Source of the DNA: Planctomycetota bacterium
Lineage (GTDB): Bacteria > Planctomycetota > Planctomycetia > Pirellulales > Pirellulaceae
Assembly: GCA_018970165.1 (NCBI GenBank)
Contig: JAGWWZ010000025.1
Coordinates: 1 to 38,409, forward strand
Length of the DNA: 38,409 bases
Direction: 5' to 3'
Shown here: one piece after another, positions 4,532-12,428 of the stretch
Position numbering within the stretch: position 1 is the stretch's first letter
Layout of the letters: each line of letters starts with the position of its first letter
Made by a program: the position numbers and the translations under genes
Notes under the pieces: model-generated
What the model saw: the letters and a program-made list of their open reading frames with translations, nothing else
The model's database searches: none
Told to the model about the DNA's origin: nothing

Positions 4532-5023
4532 ATGGATGCTCGAGAAGCGATCAAACAAACGTTACGCACTACCAACATGGTGGTTTCCAGCTACCTGAGC
4601 GACCTGAGCGATGCCGACCTCATGATTCGGCCTGCTGAGGGTTGCAATCACATCGCCTGGCAATTGGGGCACCTCATTGTCTCGAACGCAGGGATCCTCG
4701 ATTCTGTTGCACCAGGTGCTGCTCCGACATTGCCAGCGGGATTCGCCGAGCGACACGGCAAGGATCAAGCGAAGAGCGATGATCCATCAGGATTCGTCTC
4801 CAAAACAGAGTATGAAACTCTGCTGGCCCAAGTCGACGCCGCAGTCATGTCAGCCCTTGATAGAATGACCGATTCCGATCTCGATAAACCGAGCCCAGAG
4901 CATTGGCGGAATATGTTTCCTCGAGTCGGCGATGTAATGGTCTTGCTGGCGACTCACTCCCTCATGCATGCAGGTCAGTGGGTTCCTGTGCGACGCAGTC
5001 TGGGCAAGCCGGTACTGATCTGA
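4532..5023 (+). CDS. DinB-like (DUF664-type) four-helix protein
   Basis: A 163-residue protein of the DinB/YfiT superfamily, small four-helix bundles that often bind a metal with a histidine triad and in some members act as thiol-dependent transferases. Candidate ligands are His40/His47 in NHIAWQLGHLI and His142/His146 in THSLMHAGQW, the two places the family conserves. The protein has no signal peptide, so it is cytoplasmic. AGGA lies about ten bases before the ATG. The gene diverges from phoD across about 320 bases and precedes the glycoside hydrolase gene by 92 bases. Its reaction is not evident from sequence. Confidence 0.8.
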   Translation: MDAREAIKQTLRTTNMVVSSYLSDLSDADLMIRPAEGCNHIAWQLGHLIVSNAGILDSVAPGAAPTLPAGFAERHGKDQAKSDDPSGFVSKTEYETLLAQVDAAVMSALDRMTDSDLDKPSPEHWRNMFPRVGDVMVLLATHSLMHAGQWVPVRRSLGKPVLI

Positions 5024-5115
5024 TCAGCAAACGCTCTCTTCGAACCGAACGAACACTCTCTCATTGCTACGCGTTGCGAGCCGATCGTGGCAATGCAACG
5101 AGTCAGGAACCATTC

Positions 5116-7734
5116 ATGTCCTCTATGTCTCTTCCCCGATCCTTGATCGTCGCCATCCGAAGCATGCTGGCGATTGCTGCGATCGCGGTCTTGGCTGTTC
5201 AATCCCTTGGGCAAGTCATCGATCACCGAGCGTTGCTGGAACGAGAGACATTTTGGGATAATCGCGATTGGGACTGGTATATCGATCATGTTCCCGCCTT
5301 CGATTGCCCGGAACCGGACTTGGTCACGACCTACTACTACCGGTGGGAGTTGATGACGAAGCATTTGACGTATGGTTCCCCCGATGCGGGTTACTTGTTC
5401 ACTGAGTTCATCGATCGGCCTTTTTGGTCGGGAGCCTATGGCGCGATCAGTTGCCCTGCAGGACACCAACTCTACGAAGCGCGATGGCTGAGGTCTCCGC
5501 GAATTGCGAGAGATTACGGGCGTTACTGGTTTGAGACTCCCGGCGCGCAGCCTCGCAACTACTCGACCTGGCTAGCTGATTCCGTGGTCGCGGTCGACCA
5601 AGTCCACCCGAACTCCGAATGGACCCGACAGCTGCTACCGAAGCTCATCGAGAACTTCGAAGCATGGAAGGCTAGGCACTACGTCGAATCGTATCGAGGA
5701 GAGCCGGTGGGGCTGTTTTGGCAAGTAGGTCACGATGATGGGATGGAGTTCAATATCGCCAGTCGACAGACCAAAGATATCTTGCGGGGGGCTCCCAGCT
5801 ATCGTCCCTCGTTCAACGCATACATGTGGGCCGAAGCCGTCGCGATTGCCGATCTGGCGCGGCGGGAAGGAGACGAAGCAACGGCAAAAAAGTATCAGGC
5901 CTTCGCGGATGGGCTTCGAGAGAGAGTCTACGAAAAACTCTGGGACCCAAAGCGACAGTTCTTTTTGATCCGATACCGGGACGACGAAGAGAAGGATGGG
6001 CACAAGGTTACCGCCAACTCCTTCATCTATGAAAAAGGCCAATTCGCCGGGAGTCCCTATGGCCGGGAATTGATCGGTTACGTTCCCTGGCAGTTTGATA
6101 TGATTCCACCCGACTCGCAGTACGATGTGGCTTGGGGCAAACTGATGAACCGGGATGGGTTCTTCGCAGACTACGGTCCGAGTACCGTCGAACGCAACGA
6201 CCCGATGTTCCTCTTGATGAAGAGTTGCTGTTGGTGGAGCGGTCAATCCTGGCCTTACGCCACCACGCAAACGCTGAAAGGACTCGCGAACCATCTGCAG
6301 AATGGACCGTCATCGGTCATCTCGGCCGACGACTACCTGAAATCGTTATCGATCTATGCCAGATCGCACCGCAAGGATGGACGTCCCTACTTGGCCGAAG
6401 CACTCCATCCGGATACTGGATCGTTCGAAGGACATGACGGTTACAACCACAGTGAGCACTACTTTCACTCGGGATACATCGACCTCATCATTACCGGCTT
6501 GGTTGGGATCGACCCTTCCAATACAGATACCCTTCGGCTCGTTCCCTTGTTCCCTGATCATTGGGACTATCTCGCACTCGACAACCTTCGGTATCGCAAC
6601 CGCGATATCAGTATCTTTTGGGATCGGGAGGGCACGCGCTACGGCATGGGACCTGGACTCCATATCCTGTGCGACGGTCAAATGATTTGGGAGAGCAAGA
6701 AACTTGAGCTCGCATCGGTCGATCTGCCTGCTCCAAAGAATGCCTCGGGTTCCAAAGAACAGGAAAGCAATGGACATGTAAACCATCTCGTCAACAACGA
6801 TGGTTCCTACTTTCCTCGAGTCGTTGCTTCATCGACAGCCGAAGGGACCTCGATTTCCAAGATTCAAGATGGCAATTATTGGTACGTCCAACATCCTCCG
6901 AATCGCTGGGCGAGCGTTCCTGAATCTGATTCCTCTGCCACCACCACTACCACCACCATCGAACTGGATTTCGGGATGCTTCGCTCAATCGATCGATTGA
7001 AGCTTTACTTCCTCGATGATGAGGAAGAGCGAGTCGGCTCCATTCGCGCACCCCAGGGTGTTCGCGTCGCGACCTGGTTCGATGGAGCATGGAAGTCGGT
7101 TGAGATCGACTCGTCCATCCCATGGGTCGGACATCGCCCTACGACGCTTGAGTTGAACAACGTGTCGGTTTCGAAGATTCAATTGCAAATCGATGCACCG
7201 AAAGGGTACGCGATCGGTTTGACGGAGATCGAAGCTTGGGGGCCTTCGGAGTTGCCATATCGTGTTGCACCAACCCCTGCAGGAAATCTCGCATACCGTG
7301 CACCGGGCGATGAGTATCCACGAACGATTGCTTCGCATAGCGACCGGTTCGGTGGAACGCCGGAAAAGGCCAACGATGGGAAGACGATGTTTGCTCCCAC
7401 GCCTATGAATCGGTGGACCAGTTACGAGTCTCCTTCGGAATCCGATTGGCTCGAAATCCAATTCGGAAGACCAGTCGAATTTTCCCGAATCGAGATGGGG
7501 ATCTATGACGATCGAGGTGGTGTTCAGCCGCCGAAGTCCTTTGCGGTGGAAATCCTTCAAGACGGTCGCTGGCAGCGTGTGGAACGAGAAGTGCATCGAC
7601 CGAGGAAGCCGATCGGAAGCCGATGGAACGAAGCGCGATTCGATCCGGTCCGAGCGGACCGAGTTCGAATCGTGTTCGAACACAATTTGCCAGCCAAGAG
7701 TGGCGTTACCGAGGTGATGATTTGGGAGCGTTAG
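5116..7734 (+). CDS. Secreted glycoside hydrolase (MGH1/GH63-like alpha-barrel) with C-terminal discoidin-like regions
   Basis: The frame is open from 4903, but that start lies inside the DinB gene. The ATG at 5116 begins a normal signal peptide (hydrophobic residues 8-30, cleavage after SLGQ), giving 872 residues. The next ~500 residues resemble (alpha/alpha)6-barrel glycosidases of the MGH1-like/GH63 kind: NYSTWLADSV, the acidic GLFWQVGHDDGMEFN segment, aromatic-rich FNAYMWAEA, and CCWWSGQSWPYATTQTL followed by HSEHYFHSGYIDLI. From about residue 560 to the end are two beta-rich segments resembling F5/8 type C domains, for example WTSYESPSESDWLEIQFG. These usually anchor such enzymes to polysaccharide. 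Likely an exported glycan-degrading enzyme; the sugar specificity is unknown. Its end overlaps the convergent gene by 29 bases. Confidence 0.8.
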   Translation: MSSMSLPRSLIVAIRSMLAIAAIAVLAVQSLGQVIDHRALLERETFWDNRDWDWYIDHVPAFDCPEPDLVTTYYYRWELMTKHLTYGSPDAGYLFTEFIDRPFWSGAYGAISCPAGHQLYEARWLRSPRIARDYGRYWFETPGAQPRNYSTWLADSVVAVDQVHPNSEWTRQLLPKLIENFEAWKARHYVESYRGEPVGLFWQVGHDDGMEFNIASRQTKDILRGAPSYRPSFNAYMWAEAVAIADLARREGDEATAKKYQAFADGLRERVYEKLWDPKRQFFLIRYRDDEEKDGHKVTANSFIYEKGQFAGSPYGRELIGYVPWQFDMIPPDSQYDVAWGKLMNRDGFFADYGPSTVERNDPMFLLMKSCCWWSGQSWPYATTQTLKGLANHLQNGPSSVISADDYLKSLSIYARSHRKDGRPYLAEALHPDTGSFEGHDGYNHSEHYFHSGYIDLIITGLVGIDPSNTDTLRLVPLFPDHWDYLALDNLRYRNRDISIFWDREGTRYGMGPGLHILCDGQMIWESKKLELASVDLPAPKNASGSKEQESNGHVNHLVNNDGSYFPRVVASSTAEGTSISKIQDGNYWYVQHPPNRWASVPESDSSATTTTTTIELDFGMLRSIDRLKLYFLDDEEERVGSIRAPQGVRVATWFDGAWKSVEIDSSIPWVGHRPTTLELNNVSVSKIQLQIDAPKGYAIGLTEIEAWGPSELPYRVAPTPAGNLAYRAPGDEYPRTIASHSDRFGGTPEKANDGKTMFAPTPMNRWTSYESPSESDWLEIQFGRPVEFSRIEMGIYDDRGGVQPPKSFAVEILQDGRWQRVEREVHRPRKPIGSRWNEARFDPVRADRVRIVFEHNLPAKSGVTEVMIWER

Positions 7735-8239
7735 GCTCGATCCACTCGACGTTGGGATCTTTGCGAGGAGCCGCTACTTCGGTGAGCGCATCGGCAGGGA
7801 TACTGAACTCGCTCACTGCCCGAGCTCCTGTGCCGATCTGGGCAAAGACAGTCACGTGCTTGACATCCTGTTGATCGGGTGGGAAACGAACGCTCCCATT
7901 GCGGGCCACGAATGCTTCGAGCGGCAGGGTGATCGATTCGCCTGCCGGTATCCCCTTCGGCTCTTGAGCATAAAACTGCTTATTTATCCCAATCGATAAA
8001 TTTCGCCAAGATTCCTCGGTTGTATTGCGAACGCTGATGGCAGGGACGAGACGTTGAGGGTCTTGTACCGATTTGGGAGTAATCCACATCACATCCATGC
8101 GAACCAAGGCATTGAGCGGAGGTTCCGGAATTTTCTCCATCCACAATGCCAATCCCAAGCCGAAACCGACCGGAATCAAGATGCACAATGCGATGAAGCA
8201 GGTGAGGGAGAGTCGATTGAAGGTTATGCCATGGACCAT
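7706..8239 (-). CDS. Small single-span membrane protein of unknown function
   Basis: I do not recognise this family. The ATG at 8239 gives 177 residues; a longer frame to 8308 would run over the divergent promoter and is less likely. Near the N-terminus, after about 10 residues, is one hydrophobic span (LTCFIALCILIPVGFGLGLALWM). The remaining ~135 residues look extracytoplasmic and beta-rich, with RNTTEESWRNLSIGINKQFY and GESITLPLEAFVARNG suggesting an immunoglobulin-like fold. The gene is divergent from the two GTPase genes with only 92 bases between starts, so shared control is likely. Its 3' end overlaps the glycoside hydrolase gene by 29 bases, tail to tail. Confidence 0.75.
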   Translation of the reverse strand: MVHGITFNRLSLTCFIALCILIPVGFGLGLALWMEKIPEPPLNALVRMDVMWITPKSVQDPQRLVPAISVRNTTEESWRNLSIGINKQFYAQEPKGIPAGESITLPLEAFVARNGSVRFPPDQQDVKHVTVFAQIGTGARAVSEFSIPADALTEVAAPRKDPNVEWIEPNAPKSSPR

Positions 8240-8249
8240 GTACGACCTG

Positions 8250-8301
8250 TTGGATCGGATGCAGGAATGCTCTACTATTGGCAAACCGACGATTTTGTCA
8301 A
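8250..8301. promoter_or_regulatory. Divergent overlapping sigma70-like promoters
   Basis: On the plus strand TTGGAT (8250-8255), a 17-base spacer and TACTAT (8273-8278) point at the GTPase genes. On the minus strand a perfect TTGACA (8301-8296) with a 17-base spacer places its -10 on the same six bases (8278-8273, ATAGTA), pointing at the small membrane protein; that -10 is weak. If right, transcription in the two directions would compete. The plus-strand match is the better supported of the two. Confidence 0.45.
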
Positions 8302-8331
8302 ACCTCATTGGACGCTAGGGTAGTCAAGGCA

Positions 8332-10590
8332 GTGAACCCAACGCTCAAAAAATCCTTGCAGTCACTGGAGAATCTGCTCTGCGTTGAGCCCTTCGCAGTC
8401 TCGGTGAATTCAGCCGTCCGTTCGCAGACGCTCATGGATGTGATTCGTCAGTCGGAGCGTTCGGAATCGGAGCGTTCGGGGGTTTCGGTCGGGGAGAAAC
8501 GTTTATCGGAATCTCTTCGCGAAGCGTTGCTGCAGGCTCAATCGATTGTATCGGCTCCCGCTTGTCCGATCGTTGCGGTGTTGGGGATGTTGAATGCGGG
8601 GAAAAGTTCGCTCGTCGCAACGTTTCTCGGCCCTTCGGAGCCGGACAAATCGCCTTCAGAAAATCCCATTCGTCATATCGATCAACGTCGAAGAGTGTTA
8701 ATCGGCTCTGCGAACAACGAGGGGACACACCGATTCGTATTGTGGTTACCCGATTCGTGGCGTACCCAAACGGAAGTGTGGGGATTTGTTACTCGGCAAC
8801 TTGAGTCGGTGTTCGCTTCTGGGTGCGAGATGCTGTCTGACGATCCGGTCGAAGCGGCGAAGCAATACAACGATATGGCCCCTCGCATGATTCGAGATGC
8901 GAGTGGCAAATCCATTCAGCGACAACCCATCGAGATTCCTCTGATTGCGACCGATCCGAATTTGGACCGGTTGGGGATCGCATTGATGGATTGCCCGGAT
9001 ATTCAAACTGGCTTGGTCGCACCGAGTTCGACATCGACGCCGATCACGCGGTATGAAGAGGCCTCGGCTCGGGCGGCGGAAACGAGATTTGAAGTACTAT
9101 CCAAGGCGGCGATCATTTGTTCCGCCTTTCTTGTCGTCCTTCCTGCCCATGCGCTGCATGATCAGACCGTCTCGCGGTTGTTGAAGTTGCTTGAGCAGCG
9201 CATGCCGCATGTACAACGGATGTTGGCGGTGAATCGAGTGCCCAGACGCTATGCGACCGCCGATATCGCGCGCGAGGTGGATCAGTTGTACCGCGCGTCG
9301 CACATTCGCCGAGTCTACTTGGCATATAACTTTGACGGCCCCCTCTTGCGAGAGCGGCTACCGCCCCCTCCTGTGGATCTGATTTCTTCGAAGACCGAGT
9401 TGCAGTTGCCCCTTTTCTTTCGCGTCGATCGAGCGCCCGCTCCTCAGCCTCCCGATACCATCGCCGATGCCGATTGGTTGATTCGCATCGGCGGACAACT
9501 GCAAGCGACCGAACTGCTCGCCGATGCGATTCGCTCAGCGACCACCCACTTGACCACGACTGTTCATCGTTCTCTGACTATCGCTACGCAACATATCGAG
9601 CAATTGGAACAGCAGGTTCGATACTTGAGACAGGTGATCGCCGATGCCTGCACCGATTTTTCGATCGATCCCTCCTCGGCGTCTCAATCGGGATTGCGGT
9701 TGCAGGCATCACGGCAAATCATTCAACAGATCGCGGAATCTTTGGAGCGTACGGCCCCTTGGTGGGCGAAGCCCGGCCGATGGATGCAACGCATCGCCCA
9801 AGCGGGCAAGTCGACGGTCGCAGGAGCCGTTTCGTGGCTTCGAGTTCCTGGATGGCTCTCCGATGGAAGCGGTGCGGTCGGTGAATGGGTGCGAGCGCGT
9901 TTCAAACGGGGCGAAGCAGGCCGAGTCGTGACAGCCGATACTCTCTGCGATCACTTGGCACGGAGAGATGCACTCGGGCTTCTCGGTCTGGATGAATTCC
10001 CAGAGAAACAAGGAGCCGTTCGAGACGCATGCCAACGCGCGATCGAACGATTTCAAGCCGAGAGCACCGCGCAATTGGAGCCTCAGCACATCGACGCGTT
10101 GACGAGCAAGATTTGGTCGGAGATGCCTGTTCGCCAACGTATTCTCAGCGGGGTTGCTCCAGCGGGTATTTTGTTCGCGCCGTTGTTGGCCGTGATCATG
10201 ATCCCCCTCGATTTCGGTGGGACATCGGTGCTCGTCTTTGCATCGCTCAAGGAACTTCTCTTCGCGGGGGCGGCCGGGGTCGGTCTGATGTTGGCCAGCG
10301 CCGATTCGGTACCCGCCATGGCGGAGTCCGAGAGTGCTTGGCAACAGTTGTCTGATTTGGTTGCGGTGATGACGGATGAGTTGGGGCTACAGCGTGCAGC
10401 CAGTGGCGAACCGACGATCGTGAAGCTGGGAGGAGGCTCGCGACAGCTTGTTTCCAGTTCGATCCCGGTGAAGGAAAGTCATATTAGTGATCTGCCGTGC
10501 GGTGCTTGGCGTCCGATGACGATCGACCGATCGAATTTGGAATCGATACATCAACTACTGGATACAATGGAGCGGTCACAGCGAACATGA
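8332..10590 (+). CDS. Dynamin-like membrane GTPase, first of a coupled pair
   Basis: A large GTPase with C-terminal membrane segments, the architecture of bacterial dynamin-like proteins. The start is uncertain. TTG at 8278 falls on the predicted -10 box, so GTG at 8332 (752 residues) or TTG at 8308 is more likely. Numbering from 8332, the P-loop is GMLNAGKSS at about 85-93, a G3-like DCPDIQTG is near 220, and AVNRVPRR near 300 may stand for G4. A coiled-coil-prone stretch (THLTTTVHRSLTIATQHIEQ) and an amphipathic region follow. Two hydrophobic spans (APAGILFAPLLAVIMIPL and LLFAGAAGVGLMLA) lie at about 610-655. The stop overlaps the start of the next gene as ATGA. The role (membrane remodelling, fusion or stress repair) is inferred from architecture alone. 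Confidence 0.8.
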   Translation: MNPTLKKSLQSLENLLCVEPFAVSVNSAVRSQTLMDVIRQSERSESERSGVSVGEKRLSESLREALLQAQSIVSAPACPIVAVLGMLNAGKSSLVATFLGPSEPDKSPSENPIRHIDQRRRVLIGSANNEGTHRFVLWLPDSWRTQTEVWGFVTRQLESVFASGCEMLSDDPVEAAKQYNDMAPRMIRDASGKSIQRQPIEIPLIATDPNLDRLGIALMDCPDIQTGLVAPSSTSTPITRYEEASARAAETRFEVLSKAAIICSAFLVVLPAHALHDQTVSRLLKLLEQRMPHVQRMLAVNRVPRRYATADIAREVDQLYRASHIRRVYLAYNFDGPLLRERLPPPPVDLISSKTELQLPLFFRVDRAPAPQPPDTIADADWLIRIGGQLQATELLADAIRSATTHLTTTVHRSLTIATQHIEQLEQQVRYLRQVIADACTDFSIDPSSASQSGLRLQASRQIIQQIAESLERTAPWWAKPGRWMQRIAQAGKSTVAGAVSWLRVPGWLSDGSGAVGEWVRARFKRGEAGRVVTADTLCDHLARRDALGLLGLDEFPEKQGAVRDACQRAIERFQAESTAQLEPQHIDALTSKIWSEMPVRQRILSGVAPAGILFAPLLAVIMIPLDFGGTSVLVFASLKELLFAGAAGVGLMLASADSVPAMAESESAWQQLSDLVAVMTDELGLQRAASGEPTIVKLGGGSRQLVSSSIPVKESHISDLPCGAWRPMTIDRSNLESIHQLLDTMERSQRT

Positions 10591-12428
10591 ACGAAGCAGA
10601 TCGACTCGCGGACGAAATCGAGCGAGCAGCCCGTCGGTTGCTAGGTCATCAAGCGGTATGCCATACGATTGTGCAGTGGTGTGAAGAGTATCGCGCGACC
10701 GTTTCCGACATCCAGTCGGGGCGAGGAGTCGCATTGCCTAGTGTGGCGATTGTTGGAGCGAAGGGTCAAGGCAAGACGTGGATTGCTAGGCAAATGGTTC
10801 TCGATCGCCGCATCTCAGAAATGCTTCCGAGCGGCGTTCTGGCCAAGGAGGCGACTTCGCAATTGACTTGGATCGGCCCGAATCCTCCTGAAGGACTCAA
10901 CGCGGAACGAGAGGCGTATGTACCCTGCCCGACCCATTGCATGCTCGATCTGGGCCGGCCGTACATGATCATCGATACTCCAGGCTATACCGACGATGAT
11001 CCCGTCGCGGCCGCGAATGCTCGCGATGCGATGAGTCTAGCACCGATCAAGTTGATTGTCGCTCGCAGGGACCAATTGCGCAGCGCGATCCACGCAGAAT
11101 TAGCTGCACTGACCGATGGTGCGGTCTGCTTGCCCATTATCAACTCCACCCCCATCAACGAAATCGATCGCGCCGCTCCCGCAGGTCTCTCGCATCGAGC
11201 CGCTTCTTCGGTGGTAAGCCATGTCGATCGAGCCTCGGAGTCATTGCGGTCCGATTTGGAGTGGTATGTATCTGCGCTGGGAGCCAGCGCGCCGGGCTCT
11301 AAAATACTCGAGCCTATTCTGGTCGCCGACTTCGAAGCAGATGGCGATGAAGATGGTATTGGGATGCAACTGGCTACCGATCTTCGGGAGCGATTAGCCA
11401 AGCAGACTATGGAATCGCTCGCGGCCACCAAAGCCCATCGATTAGCAGCGGCGAGCGAACGAATACGGCACCGAGTGGGTGCGTTGCTCGAAACCCGGGT
11501 CCCCCAACTCTCATCGTCGGTGCGACGTTTGCATACGGCTGCCGAATCGCTTCCAGCCCAGGCCATCGAAGCAGTGCTCGGATCCAAAAGCGTTTTGAAA
11601 ACGGTGATACGCGACCGAGTAAGGGCGGACATCATCGCCAGCACGAGCCTGCTTTGGTTTCCATACCGCACGATGCTCGGCGTTCTCGGTTTGACGCACG
11701 GTGCGTGGGATCGGTTGCTCTTGTCGATGACAGGTAGTATCCCTTCGATTTTCGGTACATTTGCGGCGTGGGCGAGAAACTGGGGGCAATCGCGTGCGGC
11801 GCAGCACGAAGTTCAAAACGGAATTCGCGAGCAACTGCATCGCCAGATCCAGGATAGGCTCGAACCGGCTCAGCAACACTTCTATCGAGCGGTCGCCCGT
11901 ATTCAGGGTGGTGCTAACGAGTTTCCCGAGCAACCCGAGGAGTTGATGATTCGTTTAAGCGGTGTCGATGAGCTTCAGGTGCGAGCTAGAGAAACATTCG
12001 ATCTCATTTTCGAACAACAACGTGCACCGAAGTGGATCATCCAAGGGCTTGGACTCCTTGCGACCTTGATCTTCTGGGGATTATTCGCTGGGCCGATCAT
12101 GGCGATCTATCGAGATTACTTGGTCGCCAGCTATCACGCGTGGATAGATTCTTCATCAACCTCAAAGGATTTCCCACATCCAACGTTCAGTATGCTCACC
12201 ACGGCCGCGATACTCTCTGCCTTGCCCGTTTTGATTTTGGCGATGCTGGTGATGACATGGTTTCAGCGGGCTTCGCGATTGAATCGCATCTCAGAAGCTA
12301 TTTACTCGGCCGAACTTAAGCAAGTCGAGGAGCTCAAGCGATCGGGAGTGATCCAGCTTCATTACGACGATCCCCTTTTGAGGTCGGCGGAGTTTCTCGT
12401 GAATCTCGATCGACCTCGCGATAGCTAG
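10587..12428 (+). CDS. Dynamin-like membrane GTPase, second of a coupled pair
   Basis: 613 residues from the ATG at 10587, whose last bases overlap the previous stop (ATGA), so translation is probably coupled. Visible parts in order: a helical N-terminus; the P-loop GAKGQGKT (57-64); a G3 motif MIIDTPGYTDDD (127-138); IKLIVARRDQ and CLPIINSTPINEID, which may hold the base-binding loop; then a long helical middle rich in Arg/Ala. Two transmembrane spans follow, WIIQGLGLLATLIFWGLFAG (about 483-502) and LTTAAILSALPVLILAMLVM (about 537-556), with a short charged tail after them. Pairs of unlike dynamin-type GTPases often form hetero-oligomers, which fits the coupling. No named bacterial dynamin system can be assigned. 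Confidence 0.8.
   Translation: MNEADRLADEIERAARRLLGHQAVCHTIVQWCEEYRATVSDIQSGRGVALPSVAIVGAKGQGKTWIARQMVLDRRISEMLPSGVLAKEATSQLTWIGPNPPEGLNAEREAYVPCPTHCMLDLGRPYMIIDTPGYTDDDPVAAANARDAMSLAPIKLIVARRDQLRSAIHAELAALTDGAVCLPIINSTPINEIDRAAPAGLSHRAASSVVSHVDRASESLRSDLEWYVSALGASAPGSKILEPILVADFEADGDEDGIGMQLATDLRERLAKQTMESLAATKAHRLAAASERIRHRVGALLETRVPQLSSSVRRLHTAAESLPAQAIEAVLGSKSVLKTVIRDRVRADIIASTSLLWFPYRTMLGVLGLTHGAWDRLLLSMTGSIPSIFGTFAAWARNWGQSRAAQHEVQNGIREQLHRQIQDRLEPAQQHFYRAVARIQGGANEFPEQPEELMIRLSGVDELQVRARETFDLIFEQQRAPKWIIQGLGLLATLIFWGLFAGPIMAIYRDYLVASYHAWIDSSSTSKDFPHPTFSMLTTAAILSALPVLILAMLVMTWFQRASRLNRISEAIYSAELKQVEELKRSGVIQLHYDDPLLRSAEFLVNLDRPRDS

Follow-up and report, generated by a model that had tools for sequence, protein, structure and literature searches.

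The window analysed here, a 38,409-nucleotide stretch of DNA (contig JAGWWZ010000025.1 of GenBank assembly GCA_018970165.1) from a planctomycete of the family Pirellulaceae, carries two adjacent genes whose products are probably diverged, membrane-anchored P-loop proteins of dynamin fold that act together as do the dynamin-like proteins (DLPs) DLP1/DLP2 of Campylobacter, LeoABC and IniA/IniC. Gene A (8332..10590, forward strand) encodes 752 and gene B (10587..12428, forward strand) 613 amino acids, both identified by open frame, predicted model and fold matches. By analogy with other bacterial dynamin pairs, our best reading is that A and B would form a hetero-oligomeric remodeller of the inner membrane. 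A starts with a GTG at 8332, with a TTG at 8278 as a possible alternative start upstream, and stops with a TGA at 10588-10590, while B runs from an ATG at 10587 to a TAG at 12426-12428. The frames of the two genes overlap in an ATGA (10587..10590, forward strand) that joins the stop of A to the start of B, as had been stated in an earlier, sequence-only reading of this DNA. This coupling is not a conserved feature of the pair, since an ATGA was found in only 7 of the 52 A-B junctions that could be measured. With start codons picked by a script, any overlap was present in 12 of these junctions, 0-30 bases lay between the genes in 28, 31-150 in 11, and more in 1.

Differences between relatives were counted at codon positions 1, 2 and 3. 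The fractions were 0.26, 0.13 and 0.60 for A against its nearest relative, 0.32, 0.17 and 0.61 for B against a relative with 63% identity, and 0.20, 0.12 and 0.47 for the divergently transcribed gene S (described below) against its nearest relative. This pattern indicates coding constraint on all three genes, and the frames are therefore not due to chance.

Predicted folds of A and B

Structures were predicted with AlphaFold using alignments of 50 rows for A (the window protein and 49 of 72 candidates) and 39 rows for B (the window protein and 38 of 52 candidates), from which near-duplicates and fragments had been dropped by eye. The predicted local distance difference test score (pLDDT) and predicted template modelling score (pTM) were 85.1 and 0.82 for the model of A, and 84.8 and 0.67 for that of B. 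A Foldseek search with the model of A placed IniA first (6J72, E = 4.8e-6), followed by Fzo1, mitofusin 1, EHD2, the Campylobacter pair and SynDLP, and 18 of the 19 matches at E <=0.001 were dynamin entries, the exception being a chain of the SMG1-8-9 complex. Comparison by VIA, aligned over model residues 1..752, gave mitofusin 1 with a Z of 19.3 (327 residues at 5.0 A). Mitofusin, Fzo1 or EHD filled every one of the first 15 rows, and Era was the first non-dynamin row (Z 12.1). For the model of B, Foldseek returned BDLP first (E = 4.7e-8), then a Campylobacter DLP (5owv_C, 1.5e-6) and LeoA (2.8e-6), with Fzo1, Drp1 and IniA among the further matches, and all 41 matches at E <=0.001 were dynamin-superfamily entries. 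Both predicted models contain a G domain of the dynamin superfamily together with neck and trunk helical bundles contributed by both ends of the chain, and comparison of the A and B profiles aligned them across the nucleotide domain (probability 88, E = 2.9e-6). Judged on these models, A and B are rightly placed in the dynamin superfamily at the level of fold. The dynamin-like pair of the sequence-only reading was thus upheld by structure comparison, with BDLP and LeoA among the matches of B.

Searches with the single window proteins against Pfam, NCBIfam, PADLOC and the PDB (phmmer) gave nothing decisive, and neither protein reached an NCBIfam curated cut-off. The nearest relative of A scored 23.8 bits with Dynamin_N (PF00350; cut-off 27), rising to 28.3 when the in-frame fragments in its genome were summed, and at E <=0.1 this family matched 5 of the 50 members of A and 13 of the 39 of B. 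As many as 12 of 14 control genomes, and 57 of 60 relatives, had a Dynamin_N match, which makes this family unfit for counting dynamins here. When profiles were run against the PDB, the best match of A was 5owv_A (E = 0.019), in the P-loop region only, and that of B was a chain of elongation factor 4 (E = 0.033).

Nucleotide sites, membrane segments and known dynamin pairs

We counted motif conservation over the same 50 A and 39 B rows. The G1 P-loop and the G2 threonine of dynamins are present in both proteins. In A, the P-loop GMLNAGKSS (residues 85-93; 8584..8610, forward strand, as are all sites given for A and B) has G85, N88, G90 and K91 in 50/50 rows, and the G2 candidate GTHRFVLW (residues 131-138; 8722..8745) has T132 in 50/50. 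The P-loop of B, GAKGQGKTW (residues 57-65; 10755..10781), has G57, G62 and K63 in 39/39 rows, and its G2 candidate T90 is likewise kept in 39/39. The DxxG of G3 is found in B as DTPG (residues 130-133; 10974..10985), with D, P and G in all 39 rows, and not in A, where DCPD (residues 220-223; 8989..9000) replaces DxPG and C221, P222 and D223 are invariant, with D220 in 49/50. Neither protein has the (N/T)KxD of G4 that confers guanine specificity. The corresponding site of A, NRVP (residues 301-304; 9232..9243), keeps N301 in 49/50 rows and K or R at 302 in 48/50, is mostly V or I at the third position, and has R, P, K or N at 304, with aspartate in 0/50. In B, N or T is present in 35/39 rows, K is not among the four commonest residues at the next position, and D stands at the fourth position in 3/39.

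The invariance of the P-loop G and K in both sets of rows suggests that nucleotide binding is under selection, and A and B are both likely to bind nucleotide. GTP specificity is unproven, because the G3 of A and the G4 of both proteins are degenerate. Of the two large GTPases that had been proposed, the P-loops and dynamin folds therefore stood, while the label of GTPase is unproven. As its G3 is unlike the consensus, we class A by its fold and likely mode of work and not as a canonical dynamin GTPase. In a relative from another genome (G085, locus L175), no P-loop was seen in the B sequence.

Hydropathy was scanned in 19-residue windows. A has a C-terminal hydrophobic stretch at residues 608-651 (10153..10284) with a firm peak at 608-626 (2.31) and a marginal one at 633-651 (1.64), and the model places helices at 600-608, 610-627 and 639-646. 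B has two predicted C-terminal transmembrane segments (12051..12251) at residues 489-507 (1.96) and 537-555 (2.39), both firm and lying in long model helices (482-520 and 534-559). These peaks would correspond to the membrane-binding tip or transmembrane hairpin of dynamins, and membrane binding is predicted for both proteins. The two C-terminal spans that had been proposed for each protein are thus borne out for B, and in A for one firm and one marginal segment.

Several bacterial lineages are known to have paired dynamins, and tandem arrangements are described as common in a passage of PMC4159319. The pair DLP1/DLP2 of Campylobacter jejuni (5OWV, 5OXF), matched by the A profile and the B model as given above, resembles A and B in anatomy and pairing. 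It differs in that there is no significant sequence kinship, that the G3 of A and both G4 sites are degenerate here, that B has stronger hydrophobic segments, and that the gene neighbours are not the same. For the Campylobacter pair, a passage of PMC6104087 states that hydrolysis needs both partners and that efficient lipid binding needs the tetramer. BDLP of Nostoc (2J68, 2J69) is the top structural match of B, but identity in the aligned part is 13% and the window B has no Dynamin_N match. The top Foldseek match of A, mycobacterial IniA, is encoded in the iniBAC operon, which according to passages of PMC6715688 holds a second DLP gene, iniC. The same passages give K200 and D202 as the G4 residues of IniA, and D202 has no counterpart in A. 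LeoABC of enterotoxigenic Escherichia coli (4AUR) also comprises tandem bacterial dynamins, and LeoA is the third protein among the matches of B. The Leo partner gene is split in two (as stated in a passage of PMC4159319), whereas the window has two intact genes. Mitofusin/Fzo1 (5YEW, 9KFE) gave the highest VIA Z for both A and B (15.8 for B), but these are eukaryotic organelle fusion proteins with 11-13% identity in the alignments. Among open-licence papers searched by title and abstract, neither this pair nor any paired dynamins in planctomycetes were found described. Judged by their sequences, A and B are a separate family, with unusual nucleotide motifs and with neighbours other than those of the known tandem dynamins.

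Gene order and alternative readings

Neighbouring genes were counted by eye from a locus map, in which antisense open reading frames gave spurious families, many of them left out by the choice of families or by overlap. In 55 of 76 A loci A and B were together, in 15 no B was seen despite at least 1.5 kb of sequence after A, and 6 ended too early. Two different DLP genes thus stand side by side in 55 of the 70 loci where this is visible. For 8 of the 15 loci without an adjacent B (L187, L188, L189, L192, L197, L225, L228 and L230), B was found elsewhere in the matching genome. Of the 76 loci, 14 have a receptor-like Ser/Thr kinase gene immediately before A (Pfam E = 4e-48 and 8.9e-51), a MotA/TolQ/ExbB relative comes immediately after B in 23 of the 55 loci with A and B together (MotA_ExbB, E = 5.3e-25), and the order kinase-A-B-ExbB is complete in 11 of the 76. 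No mapped Pirellula locus has the kinase beside A, and in another group of loci the pair is preceded by genes that we presume to be CoaX and Obg. Among the genomes in which A and B lie apart, two (G169 and G174) have the kinase beside A (L160, L162) and the ExbB gene beside B (L150, L151), one (G032) shows the kinase link only, in another (G002) about 3 kb separate B from an ExbB gene, and three (G128, G023 and G008) show neither link. The ExbB relative was rejected as a dedicated component, since it was matched at E <=1e-25 in 59 of 60 genomes, including 30 of the 31 relatives without A and B. In several Rhodopirellula relatives, the ExbB-like gene that follows B is itself followed by conserved genes for an unnamed protein and for a large multihaem cytochrome carrying TPR repeats (L227:14043-18069).

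In the proposed mechanism, each protein would consist of N-terminal helices, a nucleotide-binding domain and a long helical part to which the C-terminal half contributes, and the hydrophobic region near the C-terminus would sit in the cytoplasmic membrane. A would bind B, the two probably meeting across their nucleotide sites, and nucleotide-driven bending would tether, bend or reseal the inner membrane, perhaps in repair or shaping of the envelope. As the pair lies between the kinase and the ExbB-type channel relative in some other genera, an envelope signal may control it there.

Several points weigh against reading A and B as a paired dynamin-fold remodeller. Their dynamin folds are predictions, and the query-normalised template modelling (TM) scores of the Foldseek matches at E <=0.001 were low, at 0.16-0.28 for A and 0.18-0.34 for B. 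In VIA, the mitofusin match of B ties with the nucleotide domains of EF-Tu and Era (Z about 15), so that the helical part of B depends mainly on Foldseek and was weakly tested by VIA. Both window proteins fell below every Pfam cut-off, with Dynamin_N giving 18.3 bits against 27 for A and nothing for B, and the B of locus L249, from a genome whose class we take to be Gammaproteobacteria, passes the general GTPase family MMR_HSR1 instead (28.9 bits, cut-off 21.9). The G3 of A and the G4 of both proteins depart from the GTPase consensus. B does not adjoin A in 15 of the 70 loci, locus L245 carries A with no B found in its genome, and most genomes with A and B apart are without part or all of the kinase and ExbB links. 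The interaction of A with B, nucleotide turnover and action on the membrane are steps that we infer.

The degenerate G3 and G4 could instead indicate that the pair is a nucleotide-state switch or scaffold and not a membrane motor, which together with the kinase would gate an envelope process, for example an ExbB-type channel, with slow or no hydrolysis. The B of G085 without a visible P-loop, and the two genomes in which the kinase stays with A and the ExbB gene with B, would fit such a role. We consider it rather unlikely, as the P-loop G and K are kept in every A and B row, the nearest structures are membrane remodellers, the ExbB relative occurs in nearly all relatives that have neither A nor B, and the other separated genomes show the kinase link only, an ExbB gene at some distance, or neither link. 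A bolder form of the remodeller reading, to which we attach a small probability, would see in the Pirellulaceae a dedicated, signal-controlled machine for constriction or fusion of the inner membrane, in which the kinase, two dynamin-fold membrane proteins with nucleotide sites not specific for guanine, and an ExbB/TolQ-type proton channel shape the envelope of bacteria whose division does without FtsZ.

It is very unlikely that A and B are a pair of non-dynamin TRAFAC GTPases, such as those of the double-GTPase (DO-GTPase) conflict systems. For these systems, a passage of PMC7159879 describes GTPase pairs in planctomycetes, one of the 39 B rows matches Pfam DO-GTPase2 (E = 0.046), and the B of L249 passes MMR_HSR1. 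However, none of the 50 A rows matches a DO-GTPase family at E 0.1, and the fold search puts dynamins first. The Walker-B glutamate that a passage of PMC7159879 describes as conserved is replaced at G3 by D in 49/50 A and 39/39 B rows.

Distribution of the pair and the divergent gene S

Presence counts take in partial matches, and only a few first-look candidates were scored per genome (4 and 5 in the searches of the family for A and B, 14 in that for S, 2 in the phylum sample and 3 in the class of L249's genome), so that absences are statements of lower sensitivity. Among 241 genomes of the Pirellulaceae, A was found in 114, B in 114 and both in 111, which shows that the pair is kept in this family of the Planctomycetota. 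A lack of conservation of the pair, which the sequence-only reading had named as refuting it, was thus not observed. The two genes occur in the same 17 of 68 genera, and neither was found in 124 genomes. Three genomes have A only (G003, G205 and G238) and three B only (G016, G067 and G213), with completeness of 66-94%. In the genus of the window, whose nearest named relative in the tree is a Pirellula metagenome-assembled genome (MAG; L176), A and B were each found, in full or in part, in 26 of 27 genomes, the window's own counted. Three main planctomycete clades are shared by the tree of A and that of B; deep branch order (L175, L244, L245, L174, L275 and L249) was not used, as these branches are long. 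Presence in nearly all of the genus, together with agreement of the trees, suggests a gene stably kept on the chromosome. Genome G085 carries two tandem copies of the A-B unit at a distance of 6855 bases, with frames of equal length (L175:4810-15548).

A sample of 392 genomes of the phylum, which included the window's genome and G249 of the family, gave one other strong A match (G600) and weak matches in three. A tie of the pair to the uptake-like behaviour of planctomycetes, as had been suggested, was not borne out, with this single strong match outside the family. In 321 genomes of the class of L249's genome there were two strong A matches, one of them L249's own, and 20 further matches that were short, weak and around the P-loop. 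A and B are also adjacent in G600, L244, L249 and L275. Near the pair of L249, a Candidatus Contendobacter MAG, lies a gene of polymorphic-toxin type, whose product combines a pre-toxin TG region with a ribonuclease domain at the C-terminus (L249:16221-17654).

Gene S (7706..8239, reverse strand, start ATG at 8239) encodes a predicted single-span, otherwise extracytoplasmic protein of 177 amino acids with a firm hydrophobic span at residues 14-32 (2.53). Except for its start, it lies outside the interval 8239-12428 of the sequence-only reading, which had described such a protein transcribed divergently from A at a distance of 92 bases. The arrangement is present in the window, with 92 bases between the start codons (8240..8331), and this region may perhaps hold a shared promoter. 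In the genus, S and A are transcribed divergently at 22 of 24 loci and also at L242, which holds the missing A part of one of the other two. With L242 counted, S is beside A in 23 of 24 testable loci. The outer flanks were found less often, the next left gene in 4/24 and the next two right genes in 0/24, although not every locus holds the flanks. That left gene in the window (4903-7734) encodes an MGH1-like glycoside hydrolase that carries two stretches of discoidin (F5/8 C) type.

The constancy of S beside varying flanks, and a plausible shared promoter region, would favour a single three-gene system in which S serves A and B as an extracytoplasmic sensor or anchor. Three observations make this highly improbable. 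In one genus locus (L186, genome G021), 889 bases before A are without S, which lies inside another contig. S was found in 153 of the 241 family genomes, 43 of these without A or B, and outside the genus all 8 genomes with A and B in which an S locus was examined have it away from A. Where A and B are missing, S is divergent to a sensor histidine kinase in 4 of 5 loci, that is, in 4 of the 13 S loci from other genera. Since S stands apart from A in other genera and occurs without either gene in 43 genomes, the S-A neighbourhood is a genus-level arrangement and not part of a conserved three-gene system, and the divergent gene is not judged to be a component of the pair's system, as had been proposed. 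In one of these loci (L145:6484-10035), Pfam matches show the divergent histidine kinase followed by a response regulator and then a multihaem cytochrome gene, and the S neighbourhood of L144 (6411-9832) looks alike by sequence, hinting that S may belong to respiration or its control.

We give scant credence to the idea that the pair, like LeoABC, is a mobile defence system or one directed against phages. In its favour, the PADLOC matches of A to LeoA (E = 0.0034) and LeoBC (E = 0.018), the sporadic presence in Gammaproteobacteria and the polymorphic-toxin-like gene near the pair in L249 could be cited, but these PADLOC matches lie around the P-loop only (LeoA at residues 74-102), presence in 26 of 27 genus genomes and agreement of the trees suggest that the gene is stably chromosomal, and a plasmid search with two A proteins gave no match.

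The absence of the G4 aspartate raises the question of whether a pair of dynamin fold could use a nucleotide other than GTP, and the EHD relatives among the VIA matches of A carry ATPase titles. Since neither gene was found in 124 of the 241 family genomes, the pair is no universal factor of division. FtsZ is absent from planctomycetes, and a passage of PMC6952346 reports the mechanism of their budding as unknown. In such FtsZ-less, budding bacteria, a pair of predicted membrane remodellers kept in one family would be a direct candidate for study.

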